From the IMG/VR virus record IMGVR_UViG_3300022602_001896, positions 1-36,860 of that record: DNA of 36,860 nt. One strand, 5' to 3'. The DNA is from a virus. The notes beneath the pieces are model-generated. The model searched no databases, was not told where the DNA came from, and saw nothing but the letters and a program-made list of their open reading frames with translations. Below are positions 21,674 through 36,752 of the stretch, one piece after another; position 1 is the first letter of the stretch; every line of letters starts with the position of its first letter. The position numbers were made by a program, and so were the translations under genes.

Positions 21674-22765
21674 TTAAAATAAATTTAATTTTTCCCATGG
21701 CAATTCTGGTTTACCAAAATGTCCATAGTTTGTTGTTTTGCCATATATTGGTCTAAATAATTCAAATTGATCAATAATACCCTTTGGTGTTAAATTGATA
21801 TTTTCTCGGATCCATTTTTCTAATCCTCGATTATCACCATCACTTTGTACACGCAATCCAGTTGGATCTTTGTATGCCCCGGCATAACTTATTTGTAAGG
21901 TAGCCCAAGAGGCTCGACCACTTGCTACAATATTTTTTGCTAGATAGCGCATCATGTAAGCGGCACTTCGATCTACCTTTGTAGGATCTTTTCCGCTAAA
22001 TGCTCCGCCACCATGCGGAGCATAGCCACCATAAGTATCAACAATAATTTTACGTCCAGTTACACCGGTATCACCATCTGGACCACCGATAACAAATCTA
22101 ATAGGATTTATACGGAATGTTGTATTGTCAAAATACTTCGATGGTAGTGTATTTAATATTAATTCTTCTACGGTTTTTCTAACGTTCTCAGTGCTCACAT
22201 CTTCTTTATGTTGTGTAACGCAGATAATATTATCAAACCGTTTTACAGTACCGTCATCGTTATATTCTATTGTAACCTGCGATTTAGAATCTGGTTCAAG
22301 CCATTTAATTAGATTATTTTTACGCATATTGGTTAGCATACGTAATATATAGTGACTATAGTAAATTGCCTCTGGCATAAACTCTGTATCAACATTGTTG
22401 ACAGCATGTCCAAACATAAGACCTTGATCACCGGCACCAAAGTTATCGGTGCCGGTTGCTATATCTGCGCTCTGTCCATGCATTAAGTTTGTAATTTCTA
22501 AGGTGCGCCAATCAAACCCTGATTGTTCATATCCTATTTTTTTTACAGTACCTCGTATAGCAGATTCAATTGCCTTTTCGTGTAATACACCTTTATATTC
22601 ACCGGCTATAATTACACGATTGGTTGTTACCAATGTTTCGCAGGCACAACGATTAGCAGTATTGCCTTCAAACATTGTTAAATCTAAAATAGCATCGCTA
22701 ATAGCATCTGCTATTTTATCTGGATGTCCTTCACTAACACTTTCACTGGTGAATAGATAACTCAT
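21674..22765 (-). CDS. metK: S-adenosylmethionine synthetase
   Basis: A 363-residue enzyme that makes AdoMet from methionine and ATP. The N-terminal ATP/Mg motif FTSESVSEGHPDKIADAISD is followed by a GAGDQGLMFGHA motif near 115 and, in the C-terminal part, GGGAFSGKDPTKVDRSAAYM, the phosphate-binding loop. Length is close to the usual ~384. An ATG at 22777 exists, but the start at 22765 is chosen because it overlaps the QueE stop as TAATG and has GGGGAA seven bases upstream. Coupling to queE suggests that AdoMet supply for the radical SAM enzyme, or for phage methylation, is the purpose. MetK genes are uncommon in phages. Confidence 0.95.
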   Translation of the reverse strand: MSYLFTSESVSEGHPDKIADAISDAILDLTMFEGNTANRCACETLVTTNRVIIAGEYKGVLHEKAIESAIRGTVKKIGYEQSGFDWRTLEITNLMHGQSADIATGTDNFGAGDQGLMFGHAVNNVDTEFMPEAIYYSHYILRMLTNMRKNNLIKWLEPDSKSQVTIEYNDDGTVKRFDNIICVTQHKEDVSTENVRKTVEELILNTLPSKYFDNTTFRINPIRFVIGGPDGDTGVTGRKIIVDTYGGYAPHGGGAFSGKDPTKVDRSAAYMMRYLAKNIVASGRASWATLQISYAGAYKDPTGLRVQSDGDNRGLEKWIRENINLTPKGIIDQFELFRPIYGKTTNYGHFGKPELPWEKLNLF

Positions 22766-23619
22766 TAGGTTCCCCAAAGATTCTTGAACAAAGGTACCTG
22801 TAATCTATCACTGTAACGCCAGCCACGTTTCATTGCCGCTAGTGCTACATTTTTAGCATTTAGTGTATAAACACTCTCTACACCGCCCACTGGCATTAAG
22901 TATACATGCCCTGTAAATCCTGCGGCACGATAAGCACCTACAGCACATTCTGCGTCGGCAATATCTTGTTCTGTTGCTACAACAAACTTAAGATACACAG
23001 TTCCAAACTGTTCATATTCACAAACAACTTCTGGTTTGATAGCATCGTCCCAACTCTCGCCACTGCCTGGTAATTTAGCACTTACTGAAAATGTAACTTC
23101 ACGCCCATAGATTTCATCGATGTAATGATCTAAATAATTTTTAAATTCTGTAGTTAGTGTTTGAGTGCCATTTGTTTCAAATGTAATCTCTTTTAACCCT
23201 GCCATACTAGGATGATCCAATAAATCAGGATATTGCTTTTGCCAACCTAATAACGGTTCACCACCAGTAATTACGAGATGTTCGTCTTGCCATTTTTTGT
23301 AAGGAAGTATATCCATAATTGAATCGGCAATGCTATCAGTAGATAACATAGGACTAAGATGCTTAAAACTAGGATGCCAGCTAGCATAACTATCGCATCC
23401 GGTCTCGACTAGTGGCAATTCATTGTAGGTTTTCCACGGGGTGATATCTTGTATAATGGCCAATTGCTCTGCTTGTGTGCTTAGTTCGCCACGTGGCATA
23501 CCAAACCCGGCACATTTAAAATTACACCCAAATGTGCGTAAAAACACACTGGGTACACCCATGTATCTACCTTCCCCTTGAATTGAGTAGAATAATTCTG
23601 CTATTTTAATTTTGCTCAT
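22765..23619 (-). CDS. queE: 7-carboxy-7-deazaguanine synthase (radical SAM), QueE
   Basis: A 284-residue radical SAM enzyme that converts carboxy-tetrahydropterin to 7-carboxy-7-deazaguanine on the way to preQ0. Diagnostic sequence is FYSIQGEGRYMGVPSVFLR at 10-28, then GCNFKC with Cys32 and Cys36. The expected nearby third Cys is missing. Instead there is an insertion and TGCDSYASWHP with Cys75, which resembles the CDS end of a normal QueE cluster. TGGEP at 118-122 is the AdoMet-binding motif, and KEITFETNGT is strand four. QueE proteins are known to vary in cluster spacing. Start overlaps the oxygenase stop as ATGA and stop overlaps the metK start as TAATG. It probably serves phage DNA modification with the DpdA-like enzyme at 31371-32942. 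Confidence 0.93.
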   Translation of the reverse strand: MSKIKIAELFYSIQGEGRYMGVPSVFLRTFGCNFKCAGFGMPRGELSTQAEQLAIIQDITPWKTYNELPLVETGCDSYASWHPSFKHLSPMLSTDSIADSIMDILPYKKWQDEHLVITGGEPLLGWQKQYPDLLDHPSMAGLKEITFETNGTQTLTTEFKNYLDHYIDEIYGREVTFSVSAKLPGSGESWDDAIKPEVVCEYEQFGTVYLKFVVATEQDIADAECAVGAYRAAGFTGHVYLMPVGGVESVYTLNAKNVALAAMKRGWRYSDRLQVPLFKNLWGT

Positions 23620-24542: not shown

Positions 24543-24571
24543 ATTATACATAATTTATTTAGACAAGTCAA
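24543..24571 (-). promoter_or_regulatory. Sigma70 promoter (TTGACT, 17 bp, TATAAT)
   Basis: The minus strand has TTGACT (24571-24566) and a perfect TATAAT (24548-24543) with a 17-bp spacer. It probably drives the MazG-oxygenase-queE-metK operon. The TGA inside TTGACT is the stop codon of the cupin-like gene. Its position excludes translation starts upstream of about 24535 on this transcript. Confidence 0.85.
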
Positions 24572-25038
24572 TGAAAACTTTGTTTATTATTTAGGTAATC
24601 GTCGGTATGTATCCATTTGTTATTAACTAAAAATCCCCATTCTCTAATTTGAGGACCGGGCACAAACAATGTCCATGGAGTAATGCCGGGCTTTAATGAA
24701 ACACGATGATAACTTTTAGAACTACAAAATCTAAAATGTCCAGGTCCTCTCCATATCACATTTTCTGCAATCATTTTACCATCATTATTAAAAATGGGTA
24801 CATATTCATAGTATCCGCCTTTGAGTATTAATGTAAAATAAGGCCAAGGATGATCATGAGGATCTCCTGGATCACTTTGTAAAAACTTGTGTAAGAAAAT
24901 ATTAAAAGGAAACTTTTTACGATCTTTTAAAAATAGATAATATCTTTCCAAATATGGTTCGTTATTCTGTCTATCCATTACAATACGTTTACGACCCATG
25001 TAATCTAATTTACTTAATATCCAAGTTGATAATGACAT
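24568..25038 (-). CDS. Cupin-like protein, function unknown
   Basis: A 156-residue protein with a cupin-type metal motif. PGDPHDHPWPYFTLILKGGY contains His61 and His63, with a Gly-rich turn after the strand. A second motif region is WRGPGHFRF...YHRV with His111. Cupins bind iron or other metals and cover isomerases, dioxygenases and binding proteins, so a reaction cannot be named. Similar HDHPW proteins occur in phages and bacteria without assigned role. AAAGGA lies seven bases before the ATG. It follows the subtilase gene by 10 bases and is probably co-transcribed with it. Confidence 0.75.
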   Translation of the reverse strand: MSLSTWILSKLDYMGRKRIVMDRQNNEPYLERYYLFLKDRKKFPFNIFLHKFLQSDPGDPHDHPWPYFTLILKGGYYEYVPIFNNDGKMIAENVIWRGPGHFRFCSSKSYHRVSLKPGITPWTLFVPGPQIREWGFLVNNKWIHTDDYLNNKQSFH

Positions 25039-25048
25039 ATCGTTTCCT

Positions 25049-26992
25049 TTAAAAATTAATATTTGCCTTAAAACCTGCTACATTGATACTAGATCCATTG
25101 ATACCCATAAAATTCTGTCTATTTTCTACAAAAGCAATCAAATTATTGTTGTTTTTATTGACAAATTTGTAATAAATGCCTGCTCTCAGTTCTTTTACAT
25201 CGGCCGCTAAATTAACATTAGCCGCATATACTGTATTGTAATTTGCGTCGAGACCGGTTGGGATATTGGTATTGGCCATTGCTTGGTATACAGTAACAGG
25301 CTGATACATCATAAATCCAATTCTGTTGTTTTCATTTAGACGTTGTTCTAACCCTAAGTTCCAAGAATAACTTAAAATACCACCAATATTGTTAATGTAG
25401 TCACTTCTAGAATTTGTGGTTGTTAGGCCGTTATACAGACTAGCAGTAAATTCCGTAGTATTAGATAACATCGTTGATAGTGCTACTCCGGCAAATGTAG
25501 TAAAACTCTGAGAATTTTGATCATACCCGCCTGTGTAGTTTCCTAACCAAGATCCGTTTTCAATAAAACTACCCATGCTAACTCTAACTGCTGAATTATC
25601 ATATTTTTTATTGTATGCCAACTCAACCATTGGAGTAATATCTGTATTGGCTTCTTTAGTTGTGTCTCTATACATTGTTAATTCGTAATTGCCAATGTGG
25701 GTAGTTACAAAATTAGTATAATTGTTATATTGTGTATATGGGTTTTTAGTTAGGTAAGGCATTGAAGCCTGGGCACCATTAAATGCGTATGGTGTATAAT
25801 GTGTTGCGAAGTTTGACGAGTTGACATAAAAGTCTCTGTTCATACTATCTAATACCATAACACCTGATATTTTGCCTAGACTGGCACTACCGGATGTAAT
25901 TAAAATAGGTGCGCTAGATGCCAACGGTGTATTTCTGCCGGTAGTAGGAATAGTTAAATTACCTAATGGTTGTGTTGCTCTATTTAAATCTAACAGTCCT
26001 TGTCCATATACCGCTGGATTGTAGTTACGAATACAATTTGTAATAATTGTAGTTGTACAAGAAACTTTATCTGCTGTTTGTAGTAACAATTGAACAATGT
26101 TTGCTCCAGTCATTTGAGGCCACATTTGATTTATAATTGCTACAGCACCTGAAACTGTGGCTGCCGCTTGGCTAGTGCCGCTCATTGCTGATAATCCACC
26201 AGATGTTGATACAGATGTGATATTACTTCCTGGCGCCACAATGTAGTAAGGACTGGTTATACCGGCATAATTACTATCTCCAGCAAGAATGTTACCGCTA
26301 GTAGCAAGATTTCCTACTACTAGTACTCGTCCACCCATATACAGCTTACCGTTTGTATCAGTGGCAATTGCTAATTGTCCAAAGCCAGTTGTTGGAGTTT
26401 TAAGACTTTGATTACCTGCGGATACAACCAACACAGTTTGACCGTTGCCTAATGCCGATGCCCATTGTTGATAATCTGTAGTTGTTAGTTTTGCTGTAGT
26501 TTCAGCCGAAAGGTTAACCACAGTTGCTTTGTTGGTTGATGCCCAAGCCAACCCGTTTAGTACGGTTGTTGTAGAAATTATTCCACTGGCAGAAATTTTA
26601 CCAATCATTAAGTTGGCACCAAACGCCACACCTTCCATTCCTTGCGGATTGTTATTACTTGCGGCTGCAATTCCTGCTACATTTGTACCATGACCGTTTG
26701 TATCGTTTATGCCGGTATTGGTAAAATCCTGTTCAAGTATAATTCTATTACCAAATGAACTTAATGCCGAGTTAGCAATACCAGTATCGAGTACCGCAAT
26801 TGTACTGCCTTTACCTGTATAGCCACGAGAATATGCGTAGGCGGCATTTATATCCGCTAACGCACCACTTTTATAATATTCTGGAGTTTCCCAATATGTT
26901 ATCGAATATGGTGAAGATACTGCTGACGTTAATTGTGAAAATGCTAATGTTGAATGTACTAAAACAACACCGGCCAAATATTTAAATTTCAT
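25049..26992 (-). CDS. Secreted subtilisin-like (S8) serine protease with autotransporter-like barrel
   Basis: A 647-residue protein. Residues 1-24 look like a Sec signal peptide (basic start, hydrophobic YLAGVVLVHSTLAF, then small residues). The catalytic triad is complete: Asp69 in IAVLDTG, His101 in NGHGTNVAGI, Ser274 in MSGTSQAAA, with oxyanion Asn193 in SAGN. Two Cys (312 and 320) could form a disulfide. The C-terminal ~270 residues are rich in alternating aromatic/polar strands and end in the aromatic-terminated strand FKANINF, as in outer-membrane barrels, so a type V autotransporter layout is inferred. It has its own promoter at 27023-27051, separate from the phage replication genes. 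A cell-surface protease is unusual for a phage. It might alter host or rival receptors. Confidence 0.88.
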   Translation of the reverse strand: MKFKYLAGVVLVHSTLAFSQLTSAVSSPYSITYWETPEYYKSGALADINAAYAYSRGYTGKGSTIAVLDTGIANSALSSFGNRIILEQDFTNTGINDTNGHGTNVAGIAAASNNNPQGMEGVAFGANLMIGKISASGIISTTTVLNGLAWASTNKATVVNLSAETTAKLTTTDYQQWASALGNGQTVLVVSAGNQSLKTPTTGFGQLAIATDTNGKLYMGGRVLVVGNLATSGNILAGDSNYAGITSPYYIVAPGSNITSVSTSGGLSAMSGTSQAAATVSGAVAIINQMWPQMTGANIVQLLLQTADKVSCTTTIITNCIRNYNPAVYGQGLLDLNRATQPLGNLTIPTTGRNTPLASSAPILITSGSASLGKISGVMVLDSMNRDFYVNSSNFATHYTPYAFNGAQASMPYLTKNPYTQYNNYTNFVTTHIGNYELTMYRDTTKEANTDITPMVELAYNKKYDNSAVRVSMGSFIENGSWLGNYTGGYDQNSQSFTTFAGVALSTMLSNTTEFTASLYNGLTTTNSRSDYINNIGGILSYSWNLGLEQRLNENNRIGFMMYQPVTVYQAMANTNIPTGLDANYNTVYAANVNLAADVKELRAGIYYKFVNKNNNNLIAFVENRQNFMGINGSSINVAGFKANINF

Positions 26993-27022: not shown

Positions 27023-27051
27023 AGTATACAATTGATTTTACCAATTGTCAA
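27023..27051 (-). promoter_or_regulatory. Sigma70 promoter (TTGACA, 17 bp, TATACT)
   Basis: Minus-strand TTGACA (27051-27046) and TATACT (27028-27023) with a 17-bp spacer lie 31 bases upstream of the subtilase ATG. The TGA within TTGACA is the stop codon of galE. It indicates expression of the protease from host polymerase, probably early. Confidence 0.85.
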
Positions 27052-28019
27052 TTATTTTGGCAATACCATTTATAGGCCGAATCAACAATTGTTGGTAAAT
27101 CACTATATTCTGGATACCAATTTAATTTGGTATTAGCTAATCGAGCATAGGCAACTAATTCGGCTGGGTCGCCAGGCCTTCGGTCTCCGTATTTTATGGA
27201 GTTCAATCCATATTTTTCAGTTACATAGGTAACAATCTCTTGATTGCTAGTACCTATATTTGTACCTAAATTAAAAATATGAGCACCTGGATTATTTTGA
27301 ACATAGTCTATGGCGTTTAAATGAGCAGTTGCTAGATCCCAAACATGTATATAATCTCGAATACAAGTACCATCTTCAGTTGGATAGTCAGTTCCGTTTA
27401 ATGTGAACGATGTGCCGTTGATTTTAGATTCTAAAACACGAGCAACGATATGTGTAGCGTTAGGCTCTTGTCCTAGGTCATAATTAAAAGGTTCTGCTCC
27501 TGCGGCATTAAAATATCTAAAACATACACTATTAATACCATATGCCATTGCGTAATCTTTAAGAATAGTTTCTACTATTCTTTTTGTATTACCATACGGA
27601 CTGATAGGATTTAATTTGTGATCTTCATCAATTGGAACTGTATCAGGGTCTCCATAAACTGCCGCACTACTACTAAACAATATAACAGGTTTTTTATCCA
27701 TGTCTTTAATAACATTAAGCATGGTAATAGTTTTGGCAATATTGTTATCGTAATACTCTCCTGGATCTGTCATACTAGGGCCGACTAAACTAGTGCCGGC
27801 ACAATGTACAATAACATCTGGATTAATTTTTTGTATAGCACTTAACCCTACTGGACTGGCAAAGTCATTACATGTAAAGCCATCTAGCCCTTTTGTGGTA
27901 TGCGGACGATATACCCTATCAATAATATGTACAGTATGATCATTCTGTTTGAATAGTCGTGCGACATGGCTACCTATGTAGCCACATCCACCTGTAACAA
28001 TGACTTTAAGATTATTCAT
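27048..28019 (-). CDS. galE: UDP-glucose 4-epimerase-like sugar-nucleotide epimerase
   Basis: A 323-residue extended short-chain dehydrogenase/reductase. The NAD-binding TGGCGYIGSH is at 9-18, the catalytic SSSAAVYG region is near 116-123, and YGNTK supplies Tyr142 and Lys146. Length matches GalE (about 338). It interconverts UDP-glucose and UDP-galactose or related sugars. ATG 28043 is in frame, but the start at 28019 overlaps the upstream stop as ATGAATAA and is preferred. It is separated from the glycosyltransferase gene only by an unknown gene, so a joint role in making and transferring a sugar is plausible. The exact sugar is unknown. Confidence 0.85.
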   Translation of the reverse strand: MNNLKVIVTGGCGYIGSHVARLFKQNDHTVHIIDRVYRPHTTKGLDGFTCNDFASPVGLSAIQKINPDVIVHCAGTSLVGPSMTDPGEYYDNNIAKTITMLNVIKDMDKKPVILFSSSAAVYGDPDTVPIDEDHKLNPISPYGNTKRIVETILKDYAMAYGINSVCFRYFNAAGAEPFNYDLGQEPNATHIVARVLESKINGTSFTLNGTDYPTEDGTCIRDYIHVWDLATAHLNAIDYVQNNPGAHIFNLGTNIGTSNQEIVTYVTEKYGLNSIKYGDRRPGDPAELVAYARLANTKLNWYPEYSDLPTIVDSAYKWYCQNN

Positions 28020-28995
28020 CTTTTGATAATTGTTCAAATTCAATTTTAAGTTCTTCTAATGCCGCTTCTAAATCTGCTACACGTTGTTCATCTAGATCAG
28101 TGTCTGGATTAATGGCAATCCCTTGCCACTCTTTAATTTTGATTTCATTATTTTCTGGTATATCATCATGCCATGAGATAATCCAACGTGCTCCAGTCCA
28201 TTTAGCTTGATGTGTATAACTGTTCCTGCCAGCAGTCTTAACCATGTAAATGCCTTCACGCACTGGCTTGATTTTTTTTGGAAACCAATCAGTCATTGGA
28301 TATTCTATATCATCCATATTTTTGTATACTTCCCATTTGCCAGTAGCCTTTTGTGACCCGGCGATATAGAAACCAAAATCTGAACTTTTGCCATCTGTAC
28401 TACCACCCCAGTTGTCAATGTCCACACCATCATATGATACACCATTAACAATTTCTTCACCATCGATTTCGTCTATGTGTAATGTAAGTTTGGTAATATC
28501 AAAAGGCGCTGTTAGTTCAAATTCGCCTTCAAAAAAAGTTCCTTTTTCGTTACTGCGACCCAAAAATACTACAGTACCAGCGGGTTTTTCATCTACCCAC
28601 GCTTCGACATCAAACAACAATTCTGGACTGTCATCACTACATCCATCACATTCTTCTAGAGATTTTTCAATAACAGTGTTGCCATTTTCGTCTTCAATCT
28701 GCAGTGTGCCGGCATCTTTGCTCACCCCGTTTTCGTGTGCCATGTCATCACACTCGTACCAACTGCCTGATGGGAATGGTTGCATTTCTTCTGGAATATT
28801 GTGCTCGCTGGCATATTCACTATCCCACGCATAGTCACTTAGATCAAGCCTACGGTTTTTAAAGTAGTCGTAAATCTCACGACTAACAGTACCCATAACT
28901 TTTTCACCACCATAACCCCACAAACTAATTTTATAAGTACGTGGTGTAAATTTAAGTACTTCCATTAACTGTTCTTTTTGTTCAAGAGTTGCCAT
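28012..28995 (-). CDS. Conserved acidic phage protein, function unknown
   Basis: A 327-residue strongly acidic protein I cannot assign. It contains a Cys-rich LEECDGCSDDSPEL, a beta-rich centre with FEGEFELTAPFDITKLTLHI and DNWGGSTDGKSSDFGFYIAG, and a C-terminal coiled coil (RVADLEAALEELKIEFEQL). There is no signal peptide or membrane segment. It lies one base after the glycosyltransferase gene and overlaps the galE start by eight bases, so it belongs to the same transcription unit. Similar proteins in marine T4-like phages are, to my knowledge, uncharacterised. A long opposite-strand frame (28388-28834) within it is a shadow. Confidence 0.75.
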   Translation of the reverse strand: MATLEQKEQLMEVLKFTPRTYKISLWGYGGEKVMGTVSREIYDYFKNRRLDLSDYAWDSEYASEHNIPEEMQPFPSGSWYECDDMAHENGVSKDAGTLQIEDENGNTVIEKSLEECDGCSDDSPELLFDVEAWVDEKPAGTVVFLGRSNEKGTFFEGEFELTAPFDITKLTLHIDEIDGEEIVNGVSYDGVDIDNWGGSTDGKSSDFGFYIAGSQKATGKWEVYKNMDDIEYPMTDWFPKKIKPVREGIYMVKTAGRNSYTHQAKWTGARWIISWHDDIPENNEIKIKEWQGIAINPDTDLDEQRVADLEAALEELKIEFEQLSKDE

Positions 28996-28996
28996 T

Positions 28997-30169
28997 TTAA
29001 TATTTTCCTTCGTGTGTGTGTTTACGATAGTCTGTACTCATTCGTAGCCATTGTTCGCCTTTACCTTCTATGATGTCACAAATACGATCAATAGTTCCAT
29101 CTGTCCAATCACTGATCTTGCCCATATTAGGATTAGGTTCATACAATAGTTTATCTAACTTTGCTTCCGCATCATCTAATGACCAAGGAACGTAAAGCCT
29201 AGTATGATCATTGGCAAAAGTTTCTGGAAAACTTCTATAAGCAGGATAAAGCACATTACAGCCAAGAGTGTCTGCTTCTGAGACTGTGTTAGATACCCAG
29301 TCTTGTAGCGCACAATTAAAAAGTATGCGAGTATCATTAAGAAGATTGTAGTATTCATTTTTTTCTAGATCCTCGTAAACAGTTAAAATACCACGTGCCT
29401 GTAAATCTCTGGTACGTGCCATATAACTATCATTATTACTCTTTAATTTACTACCTGAAAATACAGCAAACTCGATTGATGGATTCTTTGCTTTAACACG
29501 TTCTGCTAGATCCATGTAAAAGTCTGGTTGCTTTTCCTGATCCCAACGTGCCGCAAATCCTACACGTAGTGTGCGTTCTTTAAATGGCTTTAGTTCGCTA
29601 GCAACACGACCACGCACTTCTGCTTTGCCAAATGCCAAACCTGAGATATTGTAGATGGGCGACTCCCAGCCTGCGATTTTCATGTGCATTACCATTTCTT
29701 CGTTACTTGCTAATACACCATCAACAAATGAATCTACCATTTTTTCATAAAAACCCATCCACTTGCTCATGCCCCATACATGTACGAAATCATCCGGATC
29801 GATTGACTGAGCAAGACAGCGGACAAATATACGAGGACGCATATTAGCAGGGATTTGATTAAGAATATACGGCAAACTTTCAATGCCTGGCTGAAACATA
29901 TCTTCGAAATAGACAACATCTTCATTGGTAACTTCTCCTGCTTTCATTTTAGCAACAAGTGTCATTAACTGACTCATACCAAAGTATGTGCGACCGTGTG
30001 CGTCTAATACTTGTCCTGTAACAATGGCTTGATCATTGCTTAATGTCTCGCCTGTTACTAGTTCATAGTTGATACCTCTACGTTGAAAAACTGCTTCGTT
30101 CCAGTCTTGTAGTTGTAGAGTATAGCGAGCCTTATATGGCTCAAGACCCATATAATATAATTTACGCAT
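28997..30169 (-). CDS. Glycosyltransferase, GT-B type (GT4-like)
   Basis: A 390-residue protein with a two-domain GT-B layout. The C-terminal domain carries RVGFAARWDQEKQPDFYMDL, typical of the donor-domain opening. FAVFSGSKLKSNN and the helix region ILFNCALQDWVSNTVSEADTL correspond to the family's E-x7-E-like donor-binding segment. The N-terminus MGLEPYKARYT is of a type I recall from glycosyltransferases of T4-like marine phages. It could transfer sugar to DNA bases, as T4 enzymes do, or to surface polysaccharide. GalE nearby supports a UDP-sugar donor. The start overlaps the preceding stop as TAATG with AGGGACA upstream. Confidence 0.82.
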   Translation of the reverse strand: MRKLYYMGLEPYKARYTLQLQDWNEAVFQRRGINYELVTGETLSNDQAIVTGQVLDAHGRTYFGMSQLMTLVAKMKAGEVTNEDVVYFEDMFQPGIESLPYILNQIPANMRPRIFVRCLAQSIDPDDFVHVWGMSKWMGFYEKMVDSFVDGVLASNEEMVMHMKIAGWESPIYNISGLAFGKAEVRGRVASELKPFKERTLRVGFAARWDQEKQPDFYMDLAERVKAKNPSIEFAVFSGSKLKSNNDSYMARTRDLQARGILTVYEDLEKNEYYNLLNDTRILFNCALQDWVSNTVSEADTLGCNVLYPAYRSFPETFANDHTRLYVPWSLDDAEAKLDKLLYEPNPNMGKISDWTDGTIDRICDIIEGKGEQWLRMSTDYRKHTHEGKY

Positions 30170-30408
30170 TAGTTGTCCCTGCGATAGTTAGGATTGCGTG
30201 GTTTGTTACCTAGATATGGTTTGCGCTCATAACCAGGTTGGTTACGTTGGAAGTAACGATATTCTTGTGACTTATACAAATCAGCAGGATTGTAAGGAAG
30301 TAGATTAAACCTACAGTGATCTAACCAAGCATCAAGATCATCAAATACTTTTGTGACCTCTGGTTTCATACGTAGAGTTTTTTGAACGTAGGCTGGAATA
30401 TTTGCCAT
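30169..30408 (-). CDS. Small basic phage protein, function unknown
   Basis: A 79-residue protein. The N-terminal half is helical (VFDDLDAWLDHCRFNLLPYN), and the C-terminal half is basic, rich in Tyr, Arg, Asn and Pro (KPYLGNKPRNPNYRRDN), and probably disordered. AAAGGA precedes the ATG by nine bases. It is coupled to the glycosyltransferase through a TAATG overlap, so it may be its small partner or a nucleic-acid-binding tether. No family is recognised. Confidence 0.7.
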   Translation of the reverse strand: MANIPAYVQKTLRMKPEVTKVFDDLDAWLDHCRFNLLPYNPADLYKSQEYRYFQRNQPGYERKPYLGNKPRNPNYRRDN

Positions 30409-30422
30409 CTGATTTTTATCCT

Positions 30423-30824
30423 TTAGATATTATAATGTAATGATGAAGGGAATTTAATGAAACAGCCGTTCTCGCCGTCTTCACTAACGTCAACCCAGAT
30501 CTCGCGACCCGGATATCTTGCGACAATGGTTGCGTGAAGATCACGGCTAATCATTTCGCAGGATTTGTGGTCAAGCTCTAATGTGCCATCGTTGTAGCAC
30601 TTTTCAAGCCAACGCTTAAACTGAATAAATTCAATATCTCGGTCATCGTGGAACACTTCGATATAAACTTTAAAATGGAATATGTGACGATGCGGAGTAC
30701 CTAAAAAACTCACATCGTATTCATCACCTGTTGCTAGAGCAGGATCTGTGGCCGCCGCTGGGTAACAGTGAATGCCTTCCTTGCGGAAAGTACACCAAAT
30801 CATATTTTTTTCTTTATCAATCAT
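30423..30824 (-). CDS. QueD-like T-fold protein lacking the catalytic cysteine
   Basis: A 133-residue protein whose layout follows 6-carboxy-tetrahydropterin synthase (QueD/PTPS). Candidate zinc ligands are His19 in GIHCYP and His45/His47 in TPHRHIFHFKVYIEV, aligning with the HGH of QueD. DIEFIQFKRWLE replaces the DFxxLK strand-helix, ELDHK holds His86 at the place of the family's LDH, and Glu115 in VSEDGENG could be the base-binding Glu. The usual catalytic Cys four residues before HxH is Leu41 here, although Cys20 lies beside His19. It may therefore be a diverged QueD or an enzyme acting on a deazaguanine intermediate such as a CDG decarboxylase (the role named DpdL). It overlaps the preceding gene as ATGA, two genes after the DpdA-like enzyme. 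Confidence 0.65.
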   Translation of the reverse strand: MIDKEKNMIWCTFRKEGIHCYPAAATDPALATGDEYDVSFLGTPHRHIFHFKVYIEVFHDDRDIEFIQFKRWLEKCYNDGTLELDHKSCEMISRDLHATIVARYPGREIWVDVSEDGENGCFIKFPSSLHYNI

Positions 30825-31357
30825 AATATTTTTGATATCTCATCTTTAGAATAAGCACTCCAGGGAGTAAACTTATTACGGTCTTTTAAATCATGTAGAC
30901 TATGTGTCCACACACCGGGGTTGGTAGCATTAAAATCTCGATCATCGATTTTAAGCATAGTGTTATAGTTCCATAGTTTAATGTATGGAAGTTTAACGCT
31001 AATCTGTGGAATAAAATTATTGTACTCATTTAAACTATCATCGTGTATTGATTCAACACAACTCATAGGAATATCTAAACTACACAAATAATCTCGATCC
31101 AAAAAGAATTTAATCATGTTTCCCCAGCGTGTCCATTCTTCATAGTCATCATCTTCAGGATTAAAACTCATGTTGGCACCAAAAAAGATATGTTCAACTG
31201 TATTTTGACCATTGGTTAACATTGATACTATATCATTGACATCTTGTATACCTACAACAAACAAGGTATATTTGCCAAATGCAGGTGTGTGTTCAACTTC
31301 ATTACCATAAAAATAAGTAACGTTTGTGTGTTCACCGGATGTGTAATTTCTTTTCAT
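30821..31357 (-). CDS. Unknown protein between the DpdA-like and QueD-like genes
   Basis: A 178-residue soluble protein without recognised motifs. It has an alpha/beta look: KYTLFVVGIQDVNDIVSML and TVEHIFFGANMSF suggest alternating strands, followed by WTRWGNMIKFFLDRDYLCSL and IPQISVKLPYIKLWNY. The placement inside the putative DNA-modification group, coupled as ATGA to the QueD-like gene, suggests a role in the same pathway, but this is inference. The -10 box TATACT of its promoter ends only five bases before the ATG, so the mRNA may be leaderless. No alternative in-frame ATG exists before residue 46. Confidence 0.72.
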   Translation of the reverse strand: MKRNYTSGEHTNVTYFYGNEVEHTPAFGKYTLFVVGIQDVNDIVSMLTNGQNTVEHIFFGANMSFNPEDDDYEEWTRWGNMIKFFLDRDYLCSLDIPMSCVESIHDDSLNEYNNFIPQISVKLPYIKLWNYNTMLKIDDRDFNATNPGVWTHSLHDLKDRNKFTPWSAYSKDEISKIL

Positions 31358-31362
31358 AATTT

Positions 31363-31391
31363 AGTATATATTATTCTTTACCATCTGTCAA
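31363..31391 (-). promoter_or_regulatory. Sigma70 promoter (TTGACA, 17 bp, TATACT)
   Basis: Minus-strand TTGACA (31391-31386) lies inside the last codons of the DpdA-like gene, and TATACT (31368-31363) follows after a 17-bp spacer that contains that gene's TAA stop. The ATG of the next gene begins five bases after the -10 box, so transcription would begin at or next to the start codon. Confidence 0.8.
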
Positions 31392-32942
31392 GAATTGTTC
31401 TTCCAAAGCAACTAATTTAGAATCAGTTGGATCTGTTACATCAATTTCATTAGCGCTGGTAACTTCTTCAACTTCAAAATTATTGGCAAATGTATTATCA
31501 TTTTGACCATTTGACGTATTACGAGCACCAGCAAGACTAATTAAAAATGCTTTGGCAGTTGGATGCTCTAACATTTCCATGGCTTCGTCTAATGTTTTAG
31601 TATTGAACAGTTCTTCAACAAAGCGATCAAAATATAAAACGCTACGTGGAATAAATTCACTATACTGATCGCTATTAACATTTTTAGAATCTAATTTTTT
31701 CCAGTGTCTCCAATCTGGTTTATGTTTAGCACGTTCAATATCCATTAGTTGATTAGCACGTTGTACAGCAACAATATGTTGATACACATTATGACCCATG
31801 TATAATGCGTAACTAAAACTGTCCCAACTAGTTTTGCCTTCTTTGCCAATTTTGTTTAGCATACCAGGAGCATACCAGCAAACATCTCCCATTGTTAATC
31901 TGCGACCAAATTCACTTTCGAAAGGGAATGGTATATCCGACCTTGAAAGTGCTTTGTTGTCTGGGGCCTTTTCCATAACAATGCTGAACTTTTTGGAGGT
32001 ATGACTTGGGTTTGTGTAAGAGAGTCCGTGAGCGGTTGCGACAAACGGTGAGGCGCAGTCAAAAGATATGGTAATTTCTTCATTGATATGTTTCCTTAGT
32101 TGTCGTTGAATTGAAGTTAGATAACATGCCCAATCTAATTGGGCTGTACCCAAAAAGTGTATCCAACTCTTTTCTCTGATTAGGCCTTCTTCGCGCATAA
32201 TCATTAAACGCTTAAGAGTAATATCCATCTTACTCATATTAACACCACCAAAGGCCCAGCCTTCGAATGCTTGATCACCATGTATTTTTGTGTCATTGAA
32301 TTCTTTAACACCCTCGTACCATTCTTGCGCACTGATCCAGTCACTACCTTGAAGTACGTTTAACCATTTGGTTTTACCCATTCTATTTTTTAGAAAATAT
32401 TCATTGTTGTATCTTGTTTTTTCTAAACATTCTTCTGGCGTCTTTAGTCCTGTTCTTGGACTATTGATTTTACTACAGGCCCAAGTAGGAACGTCTAACG
32501 TCATGGACCAATCGGCAGTTAATTCTAACCAGGCAATAATATCATCGCGTACTTTGTTTGCGGCTTTACCTTCAAAATCTAACCAATCAAACTTAAGAAT
32601 ACCTTTACCAATTTGGTATCCTCCTGAATCGCCAAGAATCATTGTGTTGGAATGATCACGATCATGAATCATAGATTCTTGTACAAGACTTTTTTGTATA
32701 TCTAACTGTGCGTGACCTGCTGAATACAAGGCATGACTATAATAAAAATAACCTTGTTCTGGATTGAGAAAGTTCATACCTTCTATACCACGATCAAATC
32801 CCTTGGGAATACGATCCTTTGGAACAAATTCTTCTTGTCTTTGTTTGGCGATATATGTACTGTAAAAACTACTGATTGCTGGCAAATAAACAGCATAGTC
32901 TTTTTGTAATAATGATAGATTAACTGGTGGTCTTTTGGTCAT
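31371..32942 (-). CDS. dpdA: DpdA-like DNA guanine transglycosylase (TGT superfamily)
   Basis: A 523-residue protein with the tRNA-guanine transglycosylase barrel motifs in order. ILGDSGGYQ has Asp105, equivalent to the base-binding/acid Asp of bacterial TGT. TLDVPTW has Asp150, NVLQGS has Gln198, and WAFGGV has Gly232/233. SFDCASP has Asp295, equivalent to the nucleophile in the bacterial FDCVLPTR motif. The protein is longer than bacterial TGT (about 375) and lacks an obvious CxCxxC zinc site. DpdA enzymes exchange guanine in DNA for 7-deazaguanines and are encoded by phages to evade restriction. QueE and a QueD-like gene in this window supply context. The last ~60 residues are acidic and probably disordered. 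It overlaps the preceding gene by 23 bases. A tRNA substrate is less likely but not excluded. Confidence 0.83.
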   Translation of the reverse strand: MTKRPPVNLSLLQKDYAVYLPAISSFYSTYIAKQRQEEFVPKDRIPKGFDRGIEGMNFLNPEQGYFYYSHALYSAGHAQLDIQKSLVQESMIHDRDHSNTMILGDSGGYQIGKGILKFDWLDFEGKAANKVRDDIIAWLELTADWSMTLDVPTWACSKINSPRTGLKTPEECLEKTRYNNEYFLKNRMGKTKWLNVLQGSDWISAQEWYEGVKEFNDTKIHGDQAFEGWAFGGVNMSKMDITLKRLMIMREEGLIREKSWIHFLGTAQLDWACYLTSIQRQLRKHINEEITISFDCASPFVATAHGLSYTNPSHTSKKFSIVMEKAPDNKALSRSDIPFPFESEFGRRLTMGDVCWYAPGMLNKIGKEGKTSWDSFSYALYMGHNVYQHIVAVQRANQLMDIERAKHKPDWRHWKKLDSKNVNSDQYSEFIPRSVLYFDRFVEELFNTKTLDEAMEMLEHPTAKAFLISLAGARNTSNGQNDNTFANNFEVEEVTSANEIDVTDPTDSKLVALEEQFLTDGKE

Positions 32943-33294
32943 GTTCTTTACTTAATATAATTGTAGTATCTAATTGTATCTTTGCCTTCTTTAAATTATC
33001 TAAGGCAATATTAATAGCAGGGTGCTCTTTTGCCAATTTTTCAAGTTCAGCTTCTTCATTCATTTTATTATTGGCCCATGTAATAGCTCGAACGGCGTCA
33101 GTATTTAGGCCTACGGTGGCAACACTGGAAGATATTACCATCCAGGAAGATCCGTCGTAGACTTCAAGGCTTTGTGTGTTACCATTCCATCGAGTTATAC
33201 CAGCACTGGGAGTATTCATGTTAATGTAGGGGGTATAACCACCCCCGCCCGCTACCTGTACAAAAGGCCCGCTACTGATAATGTCTTTTATCAT
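32920..33294 (-). CDS. Small phage protein with fibre-like motif
   Basis: A 124-residue protein. The N-terminal half has a Gly-rich stretch (VQVAGGGGYTPYI), then ITRWNGNTQSLEVYDGSSWM, similar to the LKIYDGxxW-type motif of the fibre genes at 8513-13458. The C-terminal half is helical and charged (NNKMNEEAELEKLAKEHPAI). Its location is odd: it overlaps the sliding clamp gene as ATGA and runs 23 bases into the DpdA-like gene, within the replication block. It may be a virion protein in an early neighbourhood, or an adaptor. Function is unknown. Confidence 0.7.
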   Translation of the reverse strand: MIKDIISSGPFVQVAGGGGYTPYINMNTPSAGITRWNGNTQSLEVYDGSSWMVISSSVATVGLNTDAVRAITWANNKMNEEAELEKLAKEHPAINIALDNLKKAKIQLDTTIILSKEHDQKTTS

Positions 33295-34028
33295 GCTTGT
33301 GCTGGAAGGATATACTTGTAAACTGCTAGACCGCTGTCTAACGTAATTTGTAATGCGCCACTGTCGTTGCTAAAACTCATTGTTGTGTTGTTAACATCTG
33401 CGGCCTTAAGAATACTCAACACCGGTGCCCATGGCCATGTCCAGCCTTTTGTTAACTTGCCTGTAACGCCTGTGGCAAACGCAAATTCACCACCGTGTGT
33501 ACTGGCATCGCCAAATGTAAACTTCAATGTGTCACCATCTGTCTTGGCCAAGAATGTTGTATGCTCTGTATTAGCACCTGCTTGGAATTGGAAACGTTGA
33601 ATAGCGTTTAGTGAAGGAGTAACTTCAACATCCCATTTGGCACCACGGAACTTAACTGTTTTAAGTTTCTCATTAATGATATCTTGACTCATAAAACGAT
33701 AATCGTTTTTAAAATCACCATCTTTATTTTCAAAGTGTAATCCTACCGGAATATCTTCGCCATTGCGTGATCCGGCAACAACTTCGATTTTTGCGTTGTC
33801 TTGATATTCTTTACCATCTAACAGATAGCGTAGTTTTTCAAGTTGTGGCATACCAAAGGTTCCTACCATCTCTGGATAAGGAGTTGTGGTTTCTGCGTAC
33901 ATAATAACACTACGGTCTTCGGCCATACTGTCGATTAATGTTTTGTCTTCTGTGCCTGTTACCTTAACAATGTTTAAGAAGCCTAGTTTATTTGTGTGCG
34001 AGACGATGTCTTGAAGAATATCTTTCAT
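33291..34028 (-). CDS. DNA polymerase sliding clamp (gp45-like)
   Basis: A 245-residue protein, close to T4 gp45 (228). The sequence is strand-rich with alternating hydrophobics and two similar halves as expected of a clamp subunit. The C-terminal part contains WPWAPVLSILKAADVNNTTM and ALQITLDSGLAVYKYILPAQ, a tail I associate with clamps of marine T4-like phages. The adjacent DNA polymerase ends in a clamp-binding-like peptide (SSLFDFE), which supports the assignment. No enzyme motif is present. AAGGAAATTATTATG gives a good ribosome binding site, and a promoter with a weak -10 box precedes it. In T4 the clamp is also the activator of late transcription, relevant to the NATAAATA motifs here. 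Confidence 0.8.
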   Translation of the reverse strand: MKDILQDIVSHTNKLGFLNIVKVTGTEDKTLIDSMAEDRSVIMYAETTTPYPEMVGTFGMPQLEKLRYLLDGKEYQDNAKIEVVAGSRNGEDIPVGLHFENKDGDFKNDYRFMSQDIINEKLKTVKFRGAKWDVEVTPSLNAIQRFQFQAGANTEHTTFLAKTDGDTLKFTFGDASTHGGEFAFATGVTGKLTKGWTWPWAPVLSILKAADVNNTTMSFSNDSGALQITLDSGLAVYKYILPAQA

Positions 34029-34082: not shown

Positions 34083-36752
34083 TTATTCAAAATCGAACAA
34101 ACTGCTAAATGTATTTTCCTGAGTGGTTGAATTTAAATCCCATTCCAATACACCAATTAAGTTTTCCAACTTATTGTTAATGATAGTGGCTTCCATTTCT
34201 GCGTGATTAAATGGGAGTTCTTGGAACCACTTAGGCAATCGTAATTCATCTGTTGGATAGGCCACACTTGTAAATCCCAGTGGATTATCCTTTAGTTTAC
34301 ATACAATTACTTTCATACCATCAACAATATTCTGCGAGTATTTGTCACCGTTCATACGTTTCAGTGTATTCCAGTTTATACTTGCTCGAACATGACCTGG
34401 CATGTTTGCTTTACCTGCTTTGCGTTCTTTTTCTTGATAGTCAGTGATGTTGTTGGCACGTTTGGGAGAACCTTTCTCCCAACCTGGACGGGCTTTAAAT
34501 TCAGTACGGAATTCACTGATCATATCAAGTACGGTTGTTTCTTCAGCACCGTTTAGTACTTCGATTAAGACCTTTTCTAAGAACTTCTGCATAAATTCTG
34601 GAGTATCACTACGTTTCAGATCCAAGCCCATGGCCTTGATCTTGCCTGGCTTACCATCTACGTCTTGCCGCTTGCCTTCTTTGTCATAATACAATACAGC
34701 ATAACGCTTCTTGGTAATGAACAGGCCCTTGATAGCAACAATCTCACGACCGGCTTTGATAACTTCACCTCTGGTCTTTGGACAATGAAAGGCGTCAGAC
34801 ATAAAAGATGGAAACGTTGCGTTAACAGCTTCTGATAAAGTATCGTACAGTTTTATTACTGTATCTTTATCCCATGGTATTTCTTTGGCATCTATTTCTT
34901 TCTTTAGACTTGTATAAGCACTAAAGTATGCTGAGTCGGTATCACCGTAAATAATTGCTTTACCTATATGATTATACTCACCTGTGATAACTTCATTTAT
35001 TTTCCCTGCCATATGCCGAGCAATGGCTCTTCCGGTAAGTGTAGTTGACTGTCCAATACGATTATCAAAAAAGCGGCACCCACTGTTAAGAATAGCACCA
35101 TAAAGACTATTAAGATTAATTTTTTTAACGAGTTGTCGTTTGTCCCAGTATTCTTCTTCAATTTTGTTCTCCGCTTTGATAGCATCTTTAAGTTTGGCCT
35201 GCATTTCTTTACGTTCAGCATACCAACGTTTTAGTAGTCCAGGAATAACTCCTTCGTATTCGTATGTAAAAATAGTACCATTGGCACTAAGCATCCAGGG
35301 TTTATTACTTTCATAAATGAGTTCATATATTTGAGCACCGCTCATTATTTCTGATTGACCATTTTCCCAATCAACAATGATTTCATTGGCACGATCTTTG
35401 TTCATAACAAATTCGTACTCGTTAGCGCCAAACTTGCCCTCCCATGCTCCGGCAAATGATGCGCCCTTGGCCATCTTTGTTTCAATTTCTTCTTTGGTAT
35501 AATCTTGACGTAGTTGTCCAATAATAGTTTCTGGACCCATGTTCAACGCACGAATTACCGATGGATACAAACTGTTCAAGTCCATACTGCCGATCCATTC
35601 GTGAATACCTTTTTTAGGATACGCAACATACGCACCAGCGGCCTGTGTGTCACCAACATCGTCCTTGCGTATACGACTTGGAACAATCATTCCTAAATGA
35701 TGTGCTTCATTAATAATGGCCTGTTCGGTAACAGCAACAGCACCCATTGTTGTTTGTAGCAACACGGTATTTTCATGAGCAATACTGTTGGCAAGATCTA
35801 AGAATTTAAGTTTCTTATCTAATTTGTTTAATAGTGCACAGTCTTGCCTGTTATATTCAATAAACTTGCGAAAGTCGTTGTTATAAAGTTGATCAAGTGT
35901 GCCTTCGTAGACTGTTTTAGACTCGCCTACCTCCATTTCTCCAATAGCGTCAAGTCTATACGTGTGACGTTCTTCATAAGTGTATTTGCGGTACAACTCG
36001 AGGCTGTCCAAATGAACACGACCAACCAAGTCGTAAGTAATAGCCGTTTTTCCATATTTTTCGTACTCCCTTTTCTTTGGTAGTTGATCCCACAAACAGA
36101 ACCTACGTGTATCCTCTTTGCTCAATACCTTTGTAACTCTATTTACTGTATATGGAATATCAAATCCTTCTGAGTTCCATCCACTTAATACATCTGCGTC
36201 TTGTATTAAATCTAAAAATGTTTCTAATAAATCTGCTTCATTATCAAACAATACTGTGTTAGGAAAGTCTTTGACTTGTTCTTCGGCATCGGACATTTTC
36301 AATCCCTTGGGAGGAACTGCCAAACACACCAGTGTATCCATCCATTGTAGGTGAACAGCAATCGCAGTAATTGGCATAAACGCATCATCGGGTGACGCAT
36401 ATCCACGTTCTGGATCAAAGTCCACTTCAATATCGAAAAACGCTACGTTTAGTTTAGGAGCATCCTTACCTAGATAGTTTTCTTCTAGACACCGGAATAC
36501 TGGGTTAATGTCACTTTCGTATAACTTGTGACCACTGTGAATTTTTTGTTCTTTGATAAATTCTTTATGACTCTTAGCAGTGACTTTGCTAAGACTTTCA
36601 CCAAAGATTGATTTGAATTTACCCTTTTGATCAGGGTAATAAAATTGATAACGGGCTTGATAATCTGTAAAGATTCTACCCTTCTTAGGATCTCGTTCAA
36701 CAACTTGGACAATGTCCTTATCGCGATCCCATCTGGCATCGACATAACTCAT
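34083..36752 (-). CDS. Family B DNA polymerase, T4 gp43 type
   Basis: An 889-residue replicative polymerase, close to T4 gp43 (898). The 3'-5' exonuclease motifs are FFDIEVD at 105-111, GWNSEGFDIPY at 191-201 and YNRQDC at 300-305. Polymerase motif A is DLNSLYPS at 391-398, motif B KKINLNSLYG at 543-552, and motif C YGDTDS at 602-607. KKRYAVLYYD follows as the KxY motif. The C-terminus SSLFDFE resembles the clamp-binding tail of gp43. The sliding clamp is the next gene downstream. Start is well supported by AGGAG six bases upstream, and a hairpin with gp43-operator-like geometry abuts it. No split, intein or insertion is seen. Confidence 0.96.
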   Translation of the reverse strand: MSYVDARWDRDKDIVQVVERDPKKGRIFTDYQARYQFYYPDQKGKFKSIFGESLSKVTAKSHKEFIKEQKIHSGHKLYESDINPVFRCLEENYLGKDAPKLNVAFFDIEVDFDPERGYASPDDAFMPITAIAVHLQWMDTLVCLAVPPKGLKMSDAEEQVKDFPNTVLFDNEADLLETFLDLIQDADVLSGWNSEGFDIPYTVNRVTKVLSKEDTRRFCLWDQLPKKREYEKYGKTAITYDLVGRVHLDSLELYRKYTYEERHTYRLDAIGEMEVGESKTVYEGTLDQLYNNDFRKFIEYNRQDCALLNKLDKKLKFLDLANSIAHENTVLLQTTMGAVAVTEQAIINEAHHLGMIVPSRIRKDDVGDTQAAGAYVAYPKKGIHEWIGSMDLNSLYPSVIRALNMGPETIIGQLRQDYTKEEIETKMAKGASFAGAWEGKFGANEYEFVMNKDRANEIIVDWENGQSEIMSGAQIYELIYESNKPWMLSANGTIFTYEYEGVIPGLLKRWYAERKEMQAKLKDAIKAENKIEEEYWDKRQLVKKINLNSLYGAILNSGCRFFDNRIGQSTTLTGRAIARHMAGKINEVITGEYNHIGKAIIYGDTDSAYFSAYTSLKKEIDAKEIPWDKDTVIKLYDTLSEAVNATFPSFMSDAFHCPKTRGEVIKAGREIVAIKGLFITKKRYAVLYYDKEGKRQDVDGKPGKIKAMGLDLKRSDTPEFMQKFLEKVLIEVLNGAEETTVLDMISEFRTEFKARPGWEKGSPKRANNITDYQEKERKAGKANMPGHVRASINWNTLKRMNGDKYSQNIVDGMKVIVCKLKDNPLGFTSVAYPTDELRLPKWFQELPFNHAEMEATIINNKLENLIGVLEWDLNSTTQENTFSSLFDFE

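Follow-up and report, generated by a model that had tools for sequence, protein, structure and literature searches.

A DpdA-type transglycosylase module with a co-inherited glycosyltransferase predicts glycosylated 7-deazaguanine in phage DNA

Layout of the locus and the predicted transglycosylase

The window, by which we mean the whole stretch of virus DNA analyzed here (IMGVR_UViG_3300022602_001896; 36,860 nt, a 36.9-kb fragment), carries on its minus strand a gene for a predicted DpdA-type transglycosylase (DpdA) together with the genes listed in Table 1. The initial annotation had reported queE in this DNA, which was borne out by PHROG 2076 (E 4e-50) and by NCBIfam QueE models matching below their cut-offs, and had called the phage T4-like, a description in line with the family B DNA polymerase, for which the best isolate matches are jumbo phages at 42-51% identity. 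The product encoded between the polymerase and DpdA had no match to any named family in PHROG and NCBIfam searches and, judged from its position and appearance, is a probable sliding clamp. No tRNA genes were found in the window. Additionally, the S8 subtilase-type protease in this phage is kept in about 10 loci and showed weak matches to mycosin and autotransporter protease models, the full-length MetK gene adjoins queE only in the window phage among the loci compared, and the cupin-like protein, kept in 28 loci between the glycosyltransferase and QueE, possibly performs a further base-modifying step.

Table 1. Positions of the module genes and neighboring features in the window, with the basis of each assignment
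Feature	Position	Strand	Basis
DpdA-type (TGT-fold) DNA guanine transglycosylase, predicted, 523 aa	31371..32942	-	Motifs, conservation, AlphaFold model, DpdA2 profile
P178, conserved DpdA partner directly downstream	30821..31357	-	Homologues in PA5oct group and ACP17
T133, small QueD-related protein (probable T-fold)	30423..30824	-	QueD profile match, invariant His/Glu
79-aa protein, conserved between T133 and GT	30169..30408	-	In 61 compared loci
GT4-type glycosyltransferase (GT), putative	28997..30169	-	PF00534 in relatives; linkage to T133/DpdA/FolE
GalE-type UDP-glucose 4-epimerase	27048..28043	-	TIGR01179; alternative start 28019
QueE, radical SAM 7-carboxy-7-deazaguanine synthase	22765..23619	-	PHROG 2076, NCBIfam
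Family B DNA polymerase, genomic setting of module	34083..36752	-	PHROG 262 E 1e-195
Conserved 245-aa protein, encoded between polymerase and DpdA; probable sliding clamp	33291..34028	-	Conserved in 74 loci
S8 subtilase-type protease	25049..26992	-	PF00082 1e-32
Cupin-like protein	24568..25038	-	PHROG 'cysteine dioxygenase'
Methionine adenosyltransferase MetK	21674..22777	-	TIGR01034 416 bits

The DpdA ORF starts at an ATG and contains both catalytic Asp motifs (GDSGGYQ with Asp105 and FDCASP with Asp295) as well as the base-recognition motifs LQGS (residues 197-200) and FGGV (231-234), as the initial annotation had read them. DSGG[YF]Q was present in 83 of 84 homologues, the sole exception being an ORF cut short where its contig ends, and all 84 had S[FY]Dx[AS]S, while none of 20,000 shuffles of the DpdA sequence produced DSGG[YFLW]Q by chance. 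Asp150 (SMTLDVP) is also invariant and would be the base-recognizing Asp of tRNA-guanine transglycosylases (TGTs), the equivalence of DpdA and TGT residues being assigned by motif order. Two further claims of the initial annotation held as well: its length exceeds that of the matched TGT chains (~340-380 aa) by about 150 aa, and the zinc site is missing, with CxCxxC found in none of the 84 homologues.

Searches of the DpdA protein against Pfam, PHROG, NCBIfam and PDB sequences returned nothing relevant, and the Pfam and NCBIfam TGT models gave no match even at E 0.01 to 1. Structure comparison, which the initial annotation had proposed, was carried out with an AlphaFold model built from 29 sequences (mean pLDDT 75, pTM 0.79). 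Foldseek led from this model to TGTs (E 3e-8), and all of the 50 PDB matches listed were TGTs; VIA-align superposed it on Thermotoga TGT (2ash) with Z 18.5 and rmsd 4.6 over 304 residues, and on ArcTGT (1iq8) with Z 18.3 over residues 32-354 only, which is the catalytic part. The C-terminal tRNA-binding domains of ArcTGT went unmatched in the latter alignment, an absent match being weak evidence. Predicted viral structures that matched included a 'tRNA guanine transglycosylase' of Achromobacter phage Motura and the DpdA2 of nt-1. On this model, the DpdA ORF is predicted to have the TGT (beta/alpha)8 fold.

A tblastn search of 50,697 phage records resulted in 13 matches to the window DpdA, all annotated 'hypothetical', with eleven from PA5oct-type Pseudomonas jumbo phages (40% identity) and the other two from Vibrio phage 2.275.O and Sinorhizobium phage Phosso (30% identity). 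IMG/VR relatives were confirmed at 397 loci; scans of IMG/VR with the PA5oct and Vibrio 2.275.O proteins gave no match, a limit of the exact peptide patterns used. BLAST between the window DpdA and nt-1 DpdA2 found no match in either direction, whereas profile comparison related the window's group to DpdA2 over the catalytic domain (E 2.4e-7 and 1.3e-7, as against 0.08 or worse for unrelated controls), and because of this BLAST miss combined with a profile match we treat the group as a separate subfamily nearest DpdA2. The profile scored a probability of 0.6% against the 9g DpdA, a single sequence and hence a weak test, profile A3 had no match in seven other DpdA phages, and no TGT-like motif was seen in part of Campylobacter phage CP220. 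The initial annotation had considered that known DpdA types and a new one could not be told apart by eye; the profile relation now places the enzyme nearest DpdA2, from which it is distinct, with the 9g type unmatched. Taken together, these sequence comparisons point to a separate, widespread subfamily, nearest DpdA2 among the types tested (DpdA2 and the 9g DpdA); the names of two further subfamilies, DpdA3 and DpdA4, reportedly come from work by Cui and colleagues in 2023. The subfamily is not covered by the libraries searched (Pfam, PHROG, NCBIfam, PDB sequences).

Gene neighborhood, T133 and the glycosyltransferase

In the DpdA-anchored set of 80 IMG/VR loci that were fetched, the genes recur, with insertions, in the order polymerase, 245-aa protein, 124-aa protein, DpdA, P178, T133, 79-aa protein and GT, followed by QueE and an RNase H-type exonuclease. 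FolE, QueD and QueE adjoin DpdA in relatives, and DpdA and P178 are joined in a single ORF at one locus (L038). A structure model of P178 (pLDDT 82) had no convincing fold match, and the fold search for this protein returned nothing usable. Genes of IMP dehydrogenase/GMP reductase type and for a phosphoribosyltransferase lie inside the module of some relatives (L022, 11273-12292; L041, 14611-15168), where they perhaps serve guanine supply or the recycling of guanine released by the exchange. The genes after the DpdA relative of Vibrio phage 2.275.O are annotated as a preQ0 reductase (QueF), a YhhQ-type vitamin transporter (PF02592), a protein of queuosine biosynthesis, which the profile identifies as QueC, a nucleophile aminohydrolase and FolE, and from this neighborhood family members may handle preQ0-type bases.

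T133 is the gene which the initial annotation had called QueD-like. It is real and has a distant profile relation to QueD, as its profile matched phage QueD at E 1.9e-6 (controls near zero probability); it is not QueD, since the QueD model PF01242 matched neither the window nor any of 18 T133 family members. Invariant residues of T133 are three His (EGxH, HxH) and a late Glu, and no Cys ahead of the HxH zinc motif is conserved in the 18 sequences. Furthermore, canonical QueD is encoded separately from T133 in relatives. The DpdA proteins of the window and two other loci (L017 and L002) are all ~90% identical, and their T133 proteins are 40% (L017) and 95% (L002) identical to that of the window; T133 has been swapped for a divergent version among close relatives.

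The distribution of T133 is nearly exclusive with that of QueC. Phages that carry T133 and lack QueC include PA5oct, Phosso, ACP17, BUCT-ZZ01, RHph_I1_18, Bakedbeans, Ahp1, phiST, Roos and MA9V-3 as well as two long IMG/VR contigs, while seven QueC-bearing phages (nt-1, VH7D, pf16, 9g, 2.275.O, CP220 and Moby) had no T133 match. The exceptions are X1 and Vibrio phage D479, both with T133, which showed a sub-cut-off QueC match and a partial QueC-like match, respectively. No QueC was found in 80 loci anchored on GT, the positive control being recovered in 6 of 6 cases. Because the window is a fragment, statements on QueC and on FolE/QueD for its own phage rest on relatives. This near-exclusive pattern implies that the pathway probably branches at 7-carboxy-7-deazaguanine (CDG), and the missing QueC makes preQ0-type bases unlikely in this phage group. 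T133 thus seems to take the place of QueC, with CDG as its substrate. Cui and colleagues are said to have described in 2023 a CDG decarboxylase, DpdL, and we suspect that T133 may be this enzyme. Proteins of 259-303 aa with TGT-like motifs adjoin T133 in Ahp1, D479, phiST and Roos (the genes after T133 in L124 and L125, gp042 in L126 and orf78 in L127); these are probably other DpdA types paired with T133.

The window GT matched PF00534 (Glycos_transf_1) below the cut-off (2e-4; 21.4 versus 26.4 bits), and 6 of 16 members of its family match this model, at best with 8e-12. Close relatives in cultured phages are few, namely those of the PA5oct group, Phosso, ACP17, BUCT-ZZ01 and X1, each with T133; the relatives in Erwinia Ep032 and Xanthomonas PhiXhv, only 25% identical, were treated as generic, and the annotation surrounding the GT of PhiXhv-15 shows no gene for FolE, QueE or a TGT. 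The DpdA enzymes of ACP17, BUCT-ZZ01 and X1 are of the DpdA2 type and not of the window's, so that in these three isolates DpdA2 is accompanied by the same module genes, and GT, T133 and QueE are found with two different DpdA types in separate phages. The gene order in X1 is GT-DpdA2-T133-QueE, and in Phosso T133 and GT sit with FolE and QueE some 170 kb from DpdA.

We also searched IMG/VR with GT alone, which resulted in 80 loci, 38 of which span at least 12 kb. All 38 of these long GT-anchored loci contain T133, 36 contain a DpdA of the window's type, 33 FolE, 24 QueD and 17 QueE. This sample favors the window's GT subtype and its loci share ancestry, for which reason the counts are not independent events. 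The GTs in it are 69-84% identical to that of the window, whereas 63 of 65 DpdAs are less than 50% identical (median 40%), and linkage which persists despite such divergent DpdAs shows that GT belongs to the deazaguanine module and not to one phage lineage. GT is an integral part of this module.

Sugar-nucleotide enzymes often accompany GT. The window GalE scored 313.3 bits against TIGR01179 (cut-off 262.3), and where GalE is present its gap to GT has a median of 4 bp. Among DpdA-anchored loci reaching QueE, GalE accompanied the window-type GT in 13 of 13 cases, as opposed to none of the 26 that have the other GT subtype or come from PA5oct. The notion that window-type GT is always paired with GalE was dropped, because GT-anchored sampling found GalE nearby in only 20 of the 38 long loci; the link is strong, yet not obligatory. 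At several loci with the other GT subtype, GT is adjoined by FolE and a dehydrogenase of the UDP-glucose/GDP-mannose type; at other loci, DpdA and P178 are separated by genes for a Gfo/Idh-type oxidoreductase and an alcohol-dehydrogenase-like protein. With GalE, UDP-glucose dehydrogenase or other dehydrogenases nearby, the sugar may differ between phages, and we infer from these neighbors different sugars on a common base.

A proposed route to a modified guanine and its alternatives

That a TGT-fold enzyme replaces guanine in phage DNA with a 7-deazaguanine has good support from the fold, the motifs, the profile link to DpdA2, the FolE, QueD and QueE of relatives, and the place next to the polymerase. 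This part of what the initial annotation had offered as the simplest reading, guanine replacement by a 7-deazaguanine, therefore stands; that reading missed that T133 is not QueD, that QueC is absent, and that the module includes GT, often with sugar-nucleotide enzymes. The more interesting result is the co-inheritance of GT in phages lacking QueC, which predicts a glycosylated 7-deazaguanine in their DNA. We hold it to be moderately probable that these phages, a widespread group with large genomes, make such a base through a CDG branch without QueC, exchange by DpdA and addition of a sugar by GT.

In the pathway we propose, phage-encoded FolE, QueD and QueE would convert GTP to CDG, which T133 would process with QueC unused. 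After replication, DpdA would remove guanine from the phage's own DNA, rather than from tRNA, by way of a covalent enzyme-DNA intermediate, with Asp295 as the putative nucleophile, Asp105 as general acid/base and Asp150 in base recognition, and would put the 7-deazaguanine where guanine was. The GT4-type GT would then attach a sugar to the inserted base; in the window phage, this sugar would probably come from UDP-hexoses whose pool the neighboring GalE adjusts. The resulting guanine derivative, being bulky, would be able to block restriction and other defenses that read DNA. If T133 were to carry out decarboxylation alone, the base would offer no obvious hydroxyl or other group for the sugar and another route would be needed; T133 might catalyze a different reaction, P178 or another gene might add a handle, or the carboxylate itself might be the acceptor.

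The alternative that survives best, though we consider it rather unlikely, is that DpdA inserts an unglycosylated CDG-derived base (CDG, or 7-deazaguanine if T133 is a decarboxylase), while GT acts elsewhere, for example on another base, a virion protein or the host surface. T133 is present in seven phages without the window-type GT (RHph_I1_18, Bakedbeans, Ahp1, D479, phiST, Roos and MA9V-3), which means that T133 and DpdA can work without GT, and unrelated glycosyltransferases are frequent in large phages, PhiXhv-15 being one example. These points have to be weighed against the long GT-anchored loci with their constant T133 and nearly constant DpdA, the T133-GT pair of Phosso that stays with FolE and QueE far from DpdA, and the compact arrangement of X1, all of which speak against this alternative.

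Glycosylated 7-deazaguanine in DNA is also preferred over a role in tRNA, in which the enzyme would be a phage tRNA-guanine transglycosylase making a queuosine-like change during infection. The fold is indeed that of tRNA TGTs, and PA5oct encodes tRNAs, including one tRNA-Asn. However, the missing CxCxxC motif, the alignment of ArcTGT over its catalytic part only (weak evidence, as stated above), the nearest profile relation being DpdA2, the constant position beside the DNA polymerase and the lack of a tRNA gene in the window make this improbable, and an ordinary tRNA TGT was rejected as the main reading on account of the zinc motif and the replication setting. Least probable of all is the insertion of preQ0, or of a base derived from it, supplied by the host in the manner of known DpdA phages, a preQ0/archaeosine route with which the QueC, QueF-type gene and YhhQ-like transporter of 2.275.O and the queuosine pathway present in most hosts of DpdA phages (PMC6884629) would agree, but which is disfavored by the absence of QueC from T133/GT phages that encode their own FolE, QueD and QueE, and by the absence of T133 from the seven QueC-bearing comparison phages.

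Distribution and relation to known systems

Hundreds of environmental viral contigs carry the module, and so do cultured phages, namely PA5oct-type Pseudomonas phages including Paride, and ACP17, Phosso, X1 and BUCT-ZZ01. Since these cultured phages have laboratory hosts, the prediction is testable directly on virion DNA. Most module genes are annotated 'hypothetical' in them, and roles are now proposed for several such orphan genes; the module furthermore marks the apparent point of departure of the pathway from the preQ0 route. The phage 7-deazaguanines in the literature considered carry small groups at position 7, and a sugar there, if true, would mean that a single base combines base exchange with glycosylation, both of them known as shielding strategies.

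Scanning bacterial genomes gave 19 DpdA relatives. Two of their contigs (L135, L136) resemble phage sequence with the module. The others (L137-L153) are ~25-33% identical and are located on chromosomes of Limnohabitans, Polynucleobacter, Rhizobium, Azospirillum, Sphingomonas and others. Most of them have as neighbor a conserved protein of ~500-600 aa, and many are near two tyrosine-recombinase-like genes. Neither T133 nor FolE nor QueE is encoded near any of them, and GT was seen in two (L141, L150). These loci are possibly a mobile element modifying its own DNA.

Among known systems, the closest comparison is with DpdA2, defined by Hutinet et al. (2019) and found in nt-1, whose DNA carries dPreQ0, dADG and dG+ (PMC6884629). 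DpdA2 of nt-1 and its relatives shares with the window DpdA the motif order DSGGxQ, xxxD(E)xP, QG, HxLG, S[YF]DS/C and is likewise encoded by phages with deazaguanine-synthesis genes, but it is shorter (~400-464 aa) and beyond the reach of BLAST, and the pathway of the window's group is without QueC; the DpdA2 phages ACP17, BUCT-ZZ01 and X1 nevertheless share T133 and GT with that group. TGT and ArcTGT resemble the window DpdA in fold and active-site Asp motifs and differ from it in the zinc motif, in the Pfam match, and in its setting of DNA replication and deazaguanine synthesis. T133 shares with QueD a profile relation, the three invariant His and the late invariant Glu, and departs from it in lacking a PF01242 match and the Cys before HxH. 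Finally, the proposed sugar on a modified phage DNA base recalls the T4-type DNA glucosyltransferases, which make glucosyl-hydroxymethylcytosine, whereas the predicted target here is a 7-deazaguanine and the enzyme is of the Glycos_transf_1/GT4 type.
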